Assembly (NCBI GenBank): GCA_902788555.1 | Contig: CADAKQ010000012.1 | Span: forward strand, 1-63,989 | DNA: 63,989 nucleotides | Source of the DNA: an uncultured Lachnospiraceae bacterium | GTDB taxonomy: Bacteria; Bacillota; Clostridia; Lachnospirales; Lachnospiraceae | Reading direction: 5' to 3' | Shown: in pieces, positions 5,221-15,270 of the stretch | How positions within the stretch are numbered: the first letter of the stretch is position 1 | How the letters are laid out: every line of letters starts with the position of its first letter | Notes under the pieces: generated by a model | The model's input: only the letters and a program-made list of their open reading frames with translations | Databases searched by the model: none | What the model was told of the DNA's origin: nothing | Program-made: the position numbers and the translations under genes

Positions 5221-6093
5221 ATGAGCAATACCTACAAGGATTTGCAAAATTCACATCCTTGTTTTGGAGGACATAAGAATAATGTTGGAAGAATTCATCT
5301 TCCTGTCAGTCCGGGTTGTAATATAGCCTGTACATTTTGTGATAGACAGATAAATGATGTGGAAGAACGGCCGGGTGTTACCTCAAAGGTGCTTAAGCCT
5401 AAAGAGAGTCTGGATATTTTAAAGAAGGCACTTGCCCTTTGTCCGGAGATTACGGTTGCGGGTATAGCAGGACCGGGAGATACTCTTGCAACAGACAATG
5501 CACTTGAAACCTTTAAGCTGATTAAGGAAGAATTTCCGGAGCTTATAAAGTGCATGAGTACAAACGGGCTTTTGTTATATGAGAGGGCAGATGACATACT
5601 TGAGGTTGGTATAGATTCCCTTACGGTAACTGTAAATGCGGTTGATCCGAAGATAGAAGCAAAGCTTAATAAATACATCATATATCAAGGCAAGGTGATA
5701 GAGGGTGTAGAGGGAGCAAAGATTCTGATTGAAAACCAGCTTAAGGGAATTAAAAAGCTTGCAGATGCAGGGATGACAATTAAGATTAATACAGTACTTG
5801 TTCCGGATATAAATGGTGACCATATAGAAGAGATAGCGAGAACGGTTGCAGAGGCGGGAGCAAGCATTTATAACATAATTCCTCTTATACCTCAGGCAGA
5901 ACTTAAAAATGAAAGAGCTCCTGTTTGTAGGGAAATTGATGAAGCGAGAACAAAAGCGTCCAAATATATAGATGTATTCAGACATTGTCAGCACTGTCGT
6001 GCCGATGCGGTGGGAGTACCCGGAAAGTCCGAATTCGGCGACCGGATATATCAAAGAAGAATAGCTGTAAAGGAAACATTTTCACATGGATAA
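5221..6093 (+). CDS. nifB: NifB-family radical SAM protein (nitrogenase cofactor core synthesis)
   Basis: A 290-residue radical SAM enzyme. NifB fuses [4Fe-4S] clusters with a carbide to make the 8Fe core (NifB-co) used by nitrogenases. The NifB signature HPCF (Cys14), RIHLPVSPGCN and the SAM-cluster cysteines Cys33, Cys37 and Cys40 (CNIACTFC) are present, and the C-terminal CQHCRADAVG matches the conserved NifB end of this domain. No fused NifX domain; a separate NifX-like gene overlaps its end by 8 bp. A longer frame runs upstream to 5080, but it crosses the tRNA gene; ATG 5221 has GGTGAGG just upstream. Presence of NifB implies that the downstream D/K proteins carry a complex Fe-S cofactor. 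Confidence 0.92.
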   Translation: MSNTYKDLQNSHPCFGGHKNNVGRIHLPVSPGCNIACTFCDRQINDVEERPGVTSKVLKPKESLDILKKALALCPEITVAGIAGPGDTLATDNALETFKLIKEEFPELIKCMSTNGLLLYERADDILEVGIDSLTVTVNAVDPKIEAKLNKYIIYQGKVIEGVEGAKILIENQLKGIKKLADAGMTIKINTVLVPDINGDHIEEIARTVAEAGASIYNIIPLIPQAELKNERAPVCREIDEARTKASKYIDVFRHCQHCRADAVGVPGKSEFGDRIYQRRIAVKETFSHG

Positions 6094-6445
6094 ATATAAA
6101 TATCTTGTAGCGGTTGCATCCTCCGACGAAATAGTTGTTAATACGCATTTCGGAAAAGCGGATACATTTCTTATATATGGGATTTTAGAAGATAACAGCT
6201 TTGAGTACATAGAAAGAAGAGCTCTTAAGCCGGTATGTGAGGGTGGCGACCATGATGAAGGAAGGCTTATCGAAAATGCACAAAGCCTGAAGGATTGTGC
6301 ATATGTATTGGTGAGCCGGATAGGCCCAAGGGCGGTAAATATACTTGAAGCAAACGGTATAACAGCGATGGAGATACCGGATATCATAGATAACGCATTA
6401 AATAAGATTATTTCATATGATGAAATTCAAAGGTTATTTGATTAA
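6086..6445 (+). CDS. NifX/NafY-type dinitrogenase cofactor-binding protein
   Basis: A 119-residue protein of the NifX/NifB-C-terminal/NafY fold, which binds and carries Fe-S cofactor intermediates. It opens with KYLVAVASSDEIVVNTHFGKADTFLIY, the usual start of this domain, and ends in the conserved LE-NGI-AME-PD strand. The start overlaps the nifB stop, indicating translational coupling. It may substitute for the NifX domain that is fused to NifB in many bacteria. Confidence 0.88.
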   Translation: MDKYKYLVAVASSDEIVVNTHFGKADTFLIYGILEDNSFEYIERRALKPVCEGGDHDEGRLIENAQSLKDCAYVLVSRIGPRAVNILEANGITAMEIPDIIDNALNKIISYDEIQRLFD

Positions 6446-6548
6446 ATTTTATTTTAAAAGATTGCTTTAACAAACGGATGGATGATTTCCTTTTGTCTGT
6501 AAGGCATTTTATAAAAATTATATTTATAAGCAGAAAGGACATAAAAAA

Positions 6549-13890: not shown

Positions 13891-13980
13891 ATGCAGTGGT
13901 TGAGGATAAGTTAATAATGTATATATTAATTTATCGTGTGCTAAAAGGTAATGTTAGTTATATCTTAGGAGGAAAAATCT

Positions 13981-15270
13981 ATGTCTCAAATATTGGAAAA
14001 TCCACGCGGTGGCTGCGTGCTAGCGGGCGTAAACTCTGTTCTTGCGGCAATTGACAGAGTATGTCCTATATTTCATTCAGGACCGGGCTGCTGTATGCAG
14101 ACATCGGCTGCAGAGCAGGGACAGTCAGGTCATAAATCATCCTGCTTTGTAAGCAGTGTTTCAATTCCATCAAGCAATATGCTTGAAAAGGAGGTCGTGT
14201 TCGGAGGTCTGGATAAACTAAGAACTACTATCCAGGGTTCAGTTGATATAATAGATGCTGATGCATATTTTGTTTTAACAGGCTGTACCGCAGGTATAAT
14301 AGGTGATGATATAGCCAGTGTAACAGAGGAATTTCAGGCTAAGGGAGTAAGTGTATATTCTATAGACACCCCGGGCTTTGCCGGAGACAGCAACCTCGGA
14401 TATGAGGTTGTATGGAATACCATGATAGATCAGGTCATAGAGGAAAATGTGCCGCGTGACGACAAGCTTGTCAATATATTTGGCATAGTTCCTTATCATG
14501 ATCCTTTCTGGAGCGGAAGCCTTGAGGAAATCGACAGGATACTTTCCAAGCTTGGACTTAAGGTCAATACATTTTTTACAAAGCACCAAAATATCGAGGA
14601 TGTACGTAAATGTTCCGGTGCAGCGCTTAATATAATTATTAATCCATGGTTATTTAAGGGACCGGCAAAGAAATTTGAAGAAAAATTCGGCGTACCATCC
14701 ATAAGAATTGCGGGTAATCCTATCGGTGCTACCGACACTACTGCCTTTGTGCTTAAGGTTGCGGAGGCGCTTAAGCTTGAAAAAGCGCTTGTAGATAAGG
14801 TGATTGACGAGGAAGAGGATTATGTGTATAGTTATCTTGGTCAGTCGATAGGTGTACTCAGCTGGAAGCGTTTTGCCGTTGTGGCAGATGCAACCAATGC
14901 CATAGGTATAACCAGATACCTTGCCAACGATTACAGCTTTACACCTGTACTTGTGGTTATATCCGAGCCTATCTATCGTGAGGAGGATAAGCAAAGAATC
15001 ATAGATATGATAACCAATCTTGAGTATGCAAGACCGCCTAAGGTGGTATTTACCGCTGACCAGTTTGAGATAAATGATACAATCTTAAGTGAAGAGGAGG
15101 ATATCACGCTCTTAATCGGCAGTACCAATGAAAAAGAAGTCGGACTTGAAAAGGGAATCCAGTTTATAACCGCAGCCTTCCCTATGAACGAAAGACTTGT
15201 GTTCAATCGTACATATACCGGTTATCGAGGAAGTCTGACTTTTACAGAGGATTTGTATGATAACTTATAA
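13981..15270 (+). CDS. Nitrogenase component 1 beta-like subunit (NifK-like), second pair
   Basis: A 429-residue NifK-like protein with Cys12 (RGGCVLAG), Cys37 (FHSGPGCC) and Cys102 (LTGCTAGIIGDD) in P-cluster positions and a second vicinal cysteine at 38. Good AGGAGG site before ATG 13981. Ninety bases separate it from its D partner, unlike the overlapping first pair. Together with 12448-13890 it could be a second substrate-specific reductase or a cofactor-maturation scaffold; sequence alone does not decide. Confidence 0.9.
   Translation: MSQILENPRGGCVLAGVNSVLAAIDRVCPIFHSGPGCCMQTSAAEQGQSGHKSSCFVSSVSIPSSNMLEKEVVFGGLDKLRTTIQGSVDIIDADAYFVLTGCTAGIIGDDIASVTEEFQAKGVSVYSIDTPGFAGDSNLGYEVVWNTMIDQVIEENVPRDDKLVNIFGIVPYHDPFWSGSLEEIDRILSKLGLKVNTFFTKHQNIEDVRKCSGAALNIIINPWLFKGPAKKFEEKFGVPSIRIAGNPIGATDTTAFVLKVAEALKLEKALVDKVIDEEEDYVYSYLGQSIGVLSWKRFAVVADATNAIGITRYLANDYSFTPVLVVISEPIYREEDKQRIIDMITNLEYARPPKVVFTADQFEINDTILSEEEDITLLIGSTNEKEVGLEKGIQFITAAFPMNERLVFNRTYTGYRGSLTFTEDLYDNL

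Follow-up and report, generated by a model that had tools for sequence, protein, structure and literature searches.

A nitrogenase-like operon set among sulfur genes

Contig 12 (CADAKQ010000012.1; 63,989 nucleotides, hereafter the window) of the draft genome of an uncultured Lachnospiraceae bacterium (GCA_902788555.1) carries a compact set of nitrogenase-like genes on the forward strand between positions 5221 and 15270: nifB, two genes for NifX-like proteins, a single nifH and two full D/K pairs, denoted D1K1 and D2K2 (Table 1). A first-pass annotation had reported these genes in one orientation, interleaved with and flanked by sulfur genes, and had proposed that one or both pairs release sulfur from organic compounds. 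All of the named genes were confirmed, and all six P-cluster-type cysteines reported for the pairs are present in each. The sulfur genes were found as well, a CysK-like and an Rrf2 gene within the cluster and MetB/MetC-like, PatB and CysK genes upstream of it; the Rrf2 protein, called CymR-like there, scores below the cut-off of the CymR model. The first-pass annotation had overlooked a tRNA-Cys-type gene at 5124–5193 and the transporter and amidohydrolase genes farther downstream.

The draft genome (2.7 Mb, 54 contigs) contains four PF00148 genes by profile search of its contigs, every one in the window, and one true NifH (432 bits; three further matches reach only 27–34 bits). No fifth PF00148 gene, and hence no NifEN, was found in this 88.7% complete draft, which agrees with the earlier claim that NifEN is absent; nor did any NifV match in it exceed the cut-off (best 97 against 463 bits). 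NifH has a Walker A motif and both cluster cysteine motifs, and NifB scores 294 bits with the NifB structure 7jmb. NifB probably starts at 5221; the start of the mechanical open reading frame (ORF) at 5080 was rejected because that frame runs across a tRNA-type gene (5124–5193). The layout is not a chance one, as the operon recurs in many genera. The closest named match to D2 is 100% identical and comes from a Lachnospiraceae metagenome assembly of roe deer omasum (L200), so that the source organism is most likely a ruminant foregut bacterium.

D1 groups with the alpha subunit of methylthio-alkane reductase

Compared with solved structures, D1 scores 315.8 bits with MarD (9fmg_A), the alpha subunit of methylthio-alkane reductase (MAR), and 122.8 bits with the best NifD, while K1 scores 393 bits with the MarK chain of 9d9u/9fmg and 91 with NifK. 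Structure 9FMG is the MAR complex with its P-cluster and [Fe8S9C] cluster (PMC12552129). An IQ-TREE phylogeny of 62 D rows, for which 12 of the 24 D1-clade rows were dropped as near-copies, split the nitrogen fixation-like (NFL) rows from NifD plus NifE at 100/100 and placed D1 within a 31-row clade with MarD (support 100/99), the D1 clade itself receiving 100/100. The phylogenetic check suggested in the first-pass annotation thus set neither pair with NifD or NifE, and D1 with MarD. A K tree built by a quick method from 56 rows (13 of the 25 K1-clade rows, the NifN rows, and L085 and L087–L092 except those of no K type were left out) keeps the same groups, with the support for the placement of K1 given below. 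Two long-branch rows of the 31-row clade, L089 and L093, have Arg but no His at position 429, and their join with D1 may be false.

A local-pair alignment comprising 74 D rows (L085, L087, L088, L090 and L091 left out) served to compare the residues around the cluster site; the MarD residue numbers match PMC12552129 at the nine sites checked. Arg428 with His429 is called a possible MAR hallmark in that paper. The Arg-His pair, Trp195, Phe199, Cys270 and His375 (MarD numbering) are present in 24 of 24 D1-clade rows, and the hallmark residues of the window D1 are R411-H412; three further alignments reproduce the His column. The first P-cluster cysteine is kept in 23 of the 24 rows, the remaining one ending at a contig edge, and the K cysteines are kept in all 56 K rows. 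The positions of NifD Gln191 and His195 are occupied in D1 by Trp and Phe, and no His of D1 aligns with the NifD ligand His442. By alpha-subunit clade and cluster-site residues, D1K1 is a MAR-like pair.

D2K2 forms a separate clade

The second pair also has MAR as its nearest solved relative, D2 scoring 243 bits with MarD (next nitrogenase chain, 133) and K2 234 bits with MarK (NifE, 92). The 12 rows of the D2 clade form a group of their own in the 62-row tree (100/100), outside the 31-row MarD clade. Cys270 and the P-cluster cysteines are kept in all 12, and a loop-II His (D2 His424) is invariant in all 12 within the motif TTH[VI]LD[GP]KRPT[MF]GY. The spacing from this His to the following G[FY] equals that from NifD His442, and the two are likely homologous. 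At the positions of NifD Gln191 and His195 the window D2 has Cys and Phe. An AlphaFold2 model of D2 had a mean pLDDT of 56.7 and was not used. We read D2K2 as a candidate second reductase that borrows NifB and NifH.

The trees and residue tables also contain a further NFL alpha-subunit clade, denoted z, in which a lone loop-I His occurs in 8 of 8 residue-table rows and in 14 of 27 new rows. Five z-clade members (L358, L360, L362, L367 and L372) have a loop-I His together with the loop-II motif [AT][TS]HV.

Distribution of the two pairs

A PF00148 match occurs in 141 of 397 Lachnospiraceae genomes sampled (119 over the cut-off). Genes in 59 stretches taken from around listed PF00148 matches were labelled by BLASTP against the window proteins, and the counts of D1 and D2 that follow cover these stretches, genomes with weaker PF00148 matches having been left unsorted. 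Loci L005–L033 were skipped as smaller copies in the locus survey and the first tree; the D2 contig L029 of G076 is identical to L211. D1-type pairs are found in 24 genomes, D2-type pairs in 14 and both in 13. D2 without D1 occurs in one genome, G161, where D2 is divergent, while 11 of the 24 D1 genomes have no D2, 8 of these 11 holding only two PF00148 genes. D2K2 almost always accompanies D1K1. As 11 of 24 D1 genomes have no D2K2, D1K1 does not need it, and D2K2 is no obligatory scaffold. Among the best 80 of 225 D2 relatives, 78 loci were labelled with both D2 and K2, 27 with D1, 35 with K1 and 18 with NifH within the flank; D1 is undercounted here, since long antisense frames sometimes displaced the D1 frame.

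Among ten named genomes, exactly two pairs and one NifH match (four PF00148 matches, one NifH match) occur in five: Butyrivibrio hungatei NK4A153, Butyrivibrio sp. LB2008, Eubacterium ruminantium, Treponema bryantii and RM5. The corresponding PF00148 and NifH matches are 6 and 1 in Butyrivibrio sp. M55 and in an uncultured Lachnospira, 8 and 2 in MA2020, 9 and 2 in Eubacterium uniforme, and 28 and 7 in Ruminiclostridium hungatei DSM 14427 (G797). Cultured Butyrivibrio, E. ruminantium and T. bryantii thus carry the same gene set as the window. Six operons were fetched from the ten genomes; all six have the Arg-His pair in D1 and the order NifB, NifH, CysK2-labelled gene, D1, K1 in line.

Some of the relatives are unusual in other ways. 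Ruminiclostridium hungatei DSM 14427, with its 28 PF00148 and seven NifH-type matches, has an unusual collection of nitrogenase relatives. L085, L087 and L090 contain ORFs of ~740–770 amino acids that match both NifH and D-type proteins, apparent NifH-D fusions on long branches; fusions of such a sort are mentioned in PMC3464626. The 382 kb plasmid pTS2 of Treponema saccharophilum (L034) carries two D/K pairs, one NifH, an OAH-sulfhydrylase-type gene, CysK, an ABC transporter and GNAT, and an IS30 transposase lies within the cluster. The presence of the cluster on this plasmid, with IS30 inside, suggests transfer of the system between phyla.

The sulfur neighbourhood recurs

The CysK, PatB, MetB-like, second CysK-type and Rrf2 genes recur beside the operon in relatives, so that the gene-neighbourhood survey supports a sulfur context across genera. 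The second CysK-type gene adjoins NifH and D1 in many of them. Families found near D2K2 include GNAT, an SsuA-like binding protein, a TauC/SaoP-like permease, a SaoA-like ATPase, CysE, NifS, NifU-type, MoeB-rhodanese, MATE and cystine-like transporter proteins, many of them below curated cut-offs. SsuA/TauC/SaoP-like transporters also adjoin the related NifH-D locus L190. In L067 a D1-type pair is immediately preceded by relatives of the window transporter and amidohydrolase (permease 60%, ATPase 62% and amidohydrolase 67% identical), and the 195-aa protein encoded downstream of K2 recurs near D2K2 in 14 of 80 loci.

Table 1. Features of the window around the two D/K pairs, with copies of the tRNA-Cys-like RNA in relatives
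Feature	Position	Strand	Evidence
LysR-type regulator	251..1291	+	several loci have a LysR gene next to related operons
MetB/MetC family PLP enzyme, trans-sulfuration or gamma-lyase	1398..2558	+	best 455.7 bits, below the cut-off of each of the 25 models listed out of 43
PatB family C-S lyase	2638..3816	+	TIGR04350 436 bits, cut-off 340
CysK, cysteine synthase A	4110..5048	+	TIGR01139 450 bits, cut-off 351
tRNA-Cys-like RNA	5124..5193	+	GCA anticodon, G at discriminator, CCA not encoded
NifB, radical SAM core without NifX domain	5221..6093	+	TIGR01290 265 bits, below cut-off 344; CxxxCxxC present
NifX/FeMo-co-binding small protein	6086..6445	+	PF02579 68 bits
NifH, ATP-dependent reductase, putatively common to both pairs	6549..7391	+	TIGR01287 463 bits, cut-off 394
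Second CysK-type PLP synthase	7425..8414	+	338 bits to cysKM, below cut-off 344
D1, MarD-type alpha subunit	8495..9958	+	C52, C77, C143, W180, F184, C255, H360, R411, H412
K1, MarK-type beta subunit	9958..11256	+	C12, C36, C95
Second FeMo-co-binding-domain protein, Cys/Gly-rich insert	11380..11883	+	PF02579 54 bits
Rrf2 family regulator, CymR-like	11954..12376	+	PF02082 127 bits; CymR model 137 bits, below cut-off 195
D2, alpha subunit of distinct NFL clade	12448..13890	+	C49, C74, C142, C260, loop-II H424; no Arg-His
K2, beta subunit of D2 pair	13981..15270	+	C12, C37, C102
195-aa protein, HD-type label by eye	15336..15923	+	no NCBIfam family at 1e-10
Polar-amino-acid ABC transporter: binding protein, permease, ATPase	16384..18909	+	permease and ATPase closest to cystine models, below equivalog cut-offs
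Amidohydrolase, Xaa-Pro-dipeptidase-like	19003..20280	+	211 bits, cut-off 500
tRNA-Cys-like copies in relatives	L352:2727-2796; L353:3340-3409; L354:2822-2891; L192:7975-8044; L193:100-169		head nifB, metK, cysK or sulfonate-type transporter genes

A tRNA-Cys-like RNA at sulfur operons

The sole tRNA detected by ARAGORN in the window is a tRNA-Cys between cysK and nifB, and such an element is present at 8 of the 17 cysK-nifB junctions listed. A covariance model built from those eight junction copies and searched over 394 family genomes with strict filters returned a discrete class of 16 matches at 87.6–100 bits (window copy, 92.8 bits), the next match reaching 59.9. The element precedes nifB in 11 of the 16. 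It otherwise precedes metK with sulfonate-type transporter genes in G014 and, after an ORF labelled by eye as YezD-like, in G153; a CysK-type gene in G365; and an amidohydrolase with an SsuABC-like transporter in G150. In G339 it follows cysK and there are no nif genes. The order at that locus (L189) is LysR, MetB, PatB, cysK and the tRNA-Cys-like RNA, with no nif gene following within the 15 kb fetched and no PF00148 among the matches listed; the locus may have lost its reductase. Of the named operons, those of E. ruminantium, RM5 and the uncultured Lachnospira have the element and those of B. hungatei, LB2008 and T. bryantii do not.

U73 is a main determinant for recognition by cysteinyl-tRNA synthetase (CysRS). 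The discriminator position of the 16 copies is A in 11, G in 5 and U in none, and in this respect the window element departs from canonical tRNA-Cys. A canonical tRNA-Cys lies elsewhere in the genome in 8 of 12 relatives tested, all eight with U73. Position 33 is C in 2 of the 16 copies; 15 copies carry a GCA anticodon and the other carries ACA. The draft genome yields 28 tRNAs, a clearly incomplete set in which this element is the only tRNA-Cys. Over 21 distinct sequences, chosen by model match, 99.5% of 399 cells are paired in a cloverleaf, and double-change cells number 35 against 9.5 in shuffles and 0–6 in slid controls. Our guess is that the element mimics a tRNA and serves sulfur operons in a regulatory role or by being processed.

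Upstream of nifB, L052, L057, L061, L065, L071, L072, L079, L081 and L083 have a terminator-like hairpin preceded by a leader-like motif near CTGACYGGRNAACCRGAGG; motif and hairpin occur again in L190 after a YezD/DUF2292-like ORF (DUF2292 label by eye). In some relatives such a pattern stands ahead of D1. Over 150 genomes the exact pattern occurs at five sites in four, and with at most one mismatch in 21 genomes, compared with 3 for a reversed control. No Rfam family matched the motif in three loci, and the pattern was not found in the window's own genome. Farther downstream in the window, a T-box leader (26680–26933) lies upstream of an ORF at 27163–28647, its 92 bits being one bit below the gathering score.

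Relation to known systems

MAR is already known (North 2020, as cited in PMC12552129). The MarBHDK set of Rhodospirillum rubrum (9FMG) resembles the one described here in its NifB-type maturase, NifH, DK pair with six P-cluster cysteines, cluster cysteine and, in D1, the Arg-His pair; it differs in that our locus has two DK pairs, Ile for His194 and Gly for Cys73 in D1, no Arg-His in D2 and a tRNA-Cys-like RNA in the operon. IsrBHDK of Rhodobacter capsulatus is likewise an NFL system for anaerobic sulfur assimilation, encoded beside sulfonate genes, but its IsrD is described as lacking the cluster cysteine and two of the three P-cluster cysteines (PMC11423573).

The first-pass annotation had regarded two D/K pairs sharing one NifH as an unfamiliar layout. 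It is not without precedent: in Heliophilum fasciatum a single NifH-like gene accompanies five NflDK pairs, together with a NifB-like gene but no NifEN, and NflDK5 groups with MarDK (PMC9147875). This organism differs in being a phototroph, in having NflDK1–4 clustered and NflDK5 apart, and in that one pair is proposed to be a dinitrogenase (PMC9147875). NfaDK of Endomicrobium proavitum (group IV-A) also belongs to a NifEN-free group IV set with cluster cysteines, and differs in its reported 15N2 fixation; it was compared by description, NfaD standing outside our tree. Whether NfaD has the His442 equivalent is given differently by two sources, one predicting all ligands (PMC9147875) and the other describing this one as lacking (PMC4995403). 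A survey of 2012 had already pointed out NFL genes that neighbour cysteine synthase or OAH sulfhydrylase (PMC3464626), and NFL D/K genes next to cysteine synthase are reported in a termite-gut spirochaete (PMC13067680, 2026); both sources report the association alone. Precedents thus exist both for several D/K pairs served by one NifH and for cysteine synthase beside such genes. Among the open-licence PMC papers listed by our searches we saw none that describes the D2 clade or the tRNA-Cys-like element, or that interprets this operon of gut bacteria, with its two pairs, as a sulfur system.

A candidate organosulfur-salvage system and its alternatives

We consider it probable that the locus encodes an anaerobic organosulfur-salvage system based on nitrogenase-like reductases and working as follows. 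NifB, to judge from its motif and from MAR, would build an [Fe8S9C] cluster, and NifH, of which the draft genome yielded a single copy, would pass ATP-driven electrons to both catalytic components. D1K1 would be the MAR-type component with a P-cluster, its [Fe8S9C] held by Cys255 and His412 beside Arg411, and would reductively cleave a C-S bond. D2K2 would be a paralogous second component that depends on the same NifB and NifH, has a different second cluster ligand and probably acts on a different organosulfur substrate. The substrate would enter through cystine-type or sulfonate-type ABC transporters, and the CysK-type and MetB-type enzymes would capture the released thiol or sulfide. Expression would be tied to cysteine status by the LysR and Rrf2 regulators, perhaps with a part for the tRNA-Cys-like RNA.

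The earlier proposal of a sulfur reductase is partly supported: neither pair groups with NifD or NifE, D1 groups with MarD and keeps its cluster-site residues, the sulfur context recurs, and NifEN and NifV were not found in the draft genome; it falls short for D2K2, which lacks the MAR hallmark. Several observations weigh against the salvage reading or parts of it. The gene absences come from a draft genome. K1 joins the MAR group at an SH-aLRT of only 51. MarD His194 is Ile in D1, and MarD Cys73 is Gly, Ser or (one row) Asn in D1 rows, Gly in the window, so that the D1 pocket differs from that of R. rubrum MAR; His194 is replaced in every MAR-clade row except the three closest to MarD. In D2 the Arg428-His429 positions are gaps in 12 of 12 rows (the His column is a gap in three other alignments too), Trp195 is replaced by Cys or (one row) His, and His375 is absent as well. 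Because D2K2 fails the hallmark, a MAR-type reaction is one that we can only infer for it. D2 His424 shares a column with NifD His442 in one of four alignments and lies two columns away in the other three. A loop-I His without Arg occurs in 14 of 27 D proteins of the phylum sample, and 5 of these 14 also have the loop-II [AT][TS]HV; a plain loss of the loop-I ligand may therefore account for D2. The base pairs of the tRNA-Cys-like RNA that show double change number 7 against 5.0 in shuffles, a count equalled by 35 of 500 shuffles, and the window copy folds no better than its shuffles (z −1.09; 31 of 200 as good).

Two alternatives concern roles known from nitrogenase systems. D2K2 could serve D1K1 as a NifEN-like scaffold on which its cluster is matured: nifE is the best NCBIfam model for both D2 (176.8 bits) and K2 (131.9 bits), and D2K2 is nearly always found with D1K1 (13 of 14 genomes). 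Both scores are far below the cut-offs, however, D2 parts from NifE at 100/100, and the D2-type pair is absent from the 11 D1 genomes counted above, of which G171, G266, G276 and G336 are at least 97% complete and have two PF00148 genes only; D2K2 also has loci of its own beside transporters (L046, L066). We regard the scaffold role as improbable. Alternatively, one pair or both could be N2-fixing, with a cluster made without NifEN and lacking homocitrate, as has been reported of Endomicrobium proavitum. According to PMC9147875 that organism incorporates 15N2 although its group IV set has no NifEN; the absence of NifEN alone thus leaves N2 reduction possible, a point that counts against the salvage reading as well. 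D2 keeps the cluster cysteine, all P-cluster cysteines and the invariant loop-II His, and Igai 2016 saw no reason why gut Clostridiales with such a NifD could not fix N2 (PMC4995403). Yet Gln191 and His195 of NifD, described as mattering for N2 reduction (PMC12552129), are replaced in both D1 and the window D2, no NifV match in the draft genome exceeds its cut-off, the neighbours are sulfur genes, and MAR, the nearest characterised enzyme, is described as not reducing N2 (PMC12552129). Tree, residues and gene content led us to reject a bona fide nitrogenase, and we give N2 fixation by a NifEN-free cluster only a slim chance.

The remaining alternatives concern the substrate. The pairs could act on sulfonates, as Isr acts on isethionate, and not on thioethers, since SsuA/TauC/SaoP-like transporters recur near D2K2 and at L190. 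Against this, D1, D2 and the window NifB hold features missing in Isr (the D2 His only probably so): IsrD is described as having one of three P-cluster cysteines and no equivalents of Cys275 and His442, and IsrB as closest to BciD, resembling NifB in the radical SAM motif only (PMC11423573). Membership in Isr itself was rejected on the cysteines, all of which are present, and on the maturase, which matches NifB; the distinction is drawn from published features, Isr sequences standing outside our tree. A sulfonate substrate appears rather unlikely to us. The pairs could also reduce a compound without sulfur, such as a tetrapyrrole or another C=C bond, with the sulfur genes as bystanders, as DPOR, COR and Cfb are NFL enzymes with such reactions (PMC12552129; PMC11423573). 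BchNB and CfbD are described as lacking the full cysteine set and large clusters (PMC12552129); the present locus retains NifB, the cluster cysteine and the P-cluster cysteines, and its sulfur neighbours recur in other genera. A CfbCD- or Bch-like function is disfavoured, and we attach very little probability to any non-sulfur substrate.

Organosulfur salvage, the reading that we prefer, has a more far-reaching form, which we offer tentatively and doubt as a whole: D2K2 would represent a new class of NifEN-free [Fe8S9C] organosulfur reductase with a non-MAR second ligand, the gut Butyrivibrio/Lachnospira nifH signal and part of the acetylene reduction in guts would come from this sulfur system and not from nitrogen fixation, and a tRNA-Cys mimic placed at the head of sulfur operons in this family would mediate control or processing of the operon as a cysteine-status RNA element.

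Implications for nifH in gut bacteria

NifH of the window scores above the cut-off of the NCBIfam 'nitrogenase iron protein' equivalog model. It is 91–92% identical to the NifH of the six named operons; its identity to canonical NifH from six genomes is 74–78%. A relative with 82% identity carries the label nitrogen fixation in a public plasmid record. The three named Butyrivibrio genomes and one uncultured Lachnospira genome have one NifH match each, 91–92% identical to that of the window, and their D/K matches score at most 273 bits, compared with 300–433 for canonical ones; NifH lies in the D1 operon in all three of these four genomes whose operon was fetched.

Igai 2016 reported human-gut nifH close to Lachnospira and Butyrivibrio and read it as coming from candidate nitrogen fixers, with NifD that had or lacked a histidine written there as His422 (PMC4995403). 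These two forms of NifD could be D2 and D1, respectively. Incorporation of 15N2 in faeces was measured in the same study, which detected nifH of Klebsiella, a further candidate source, as well (PMC4995403). As MAR reduces acetylene (PMC12552129), acetylene assays cannot separate it from nitrogenase. The system is real, widespread and conserved. Similar genes of gut bacteria have been read as those of nitrogen fixers, yet this operon has the appearance of a NifEN-free sulfur system, and the most likely role of its two pairs is to remove sulfur from organic compounds and not to fix nitrogen.

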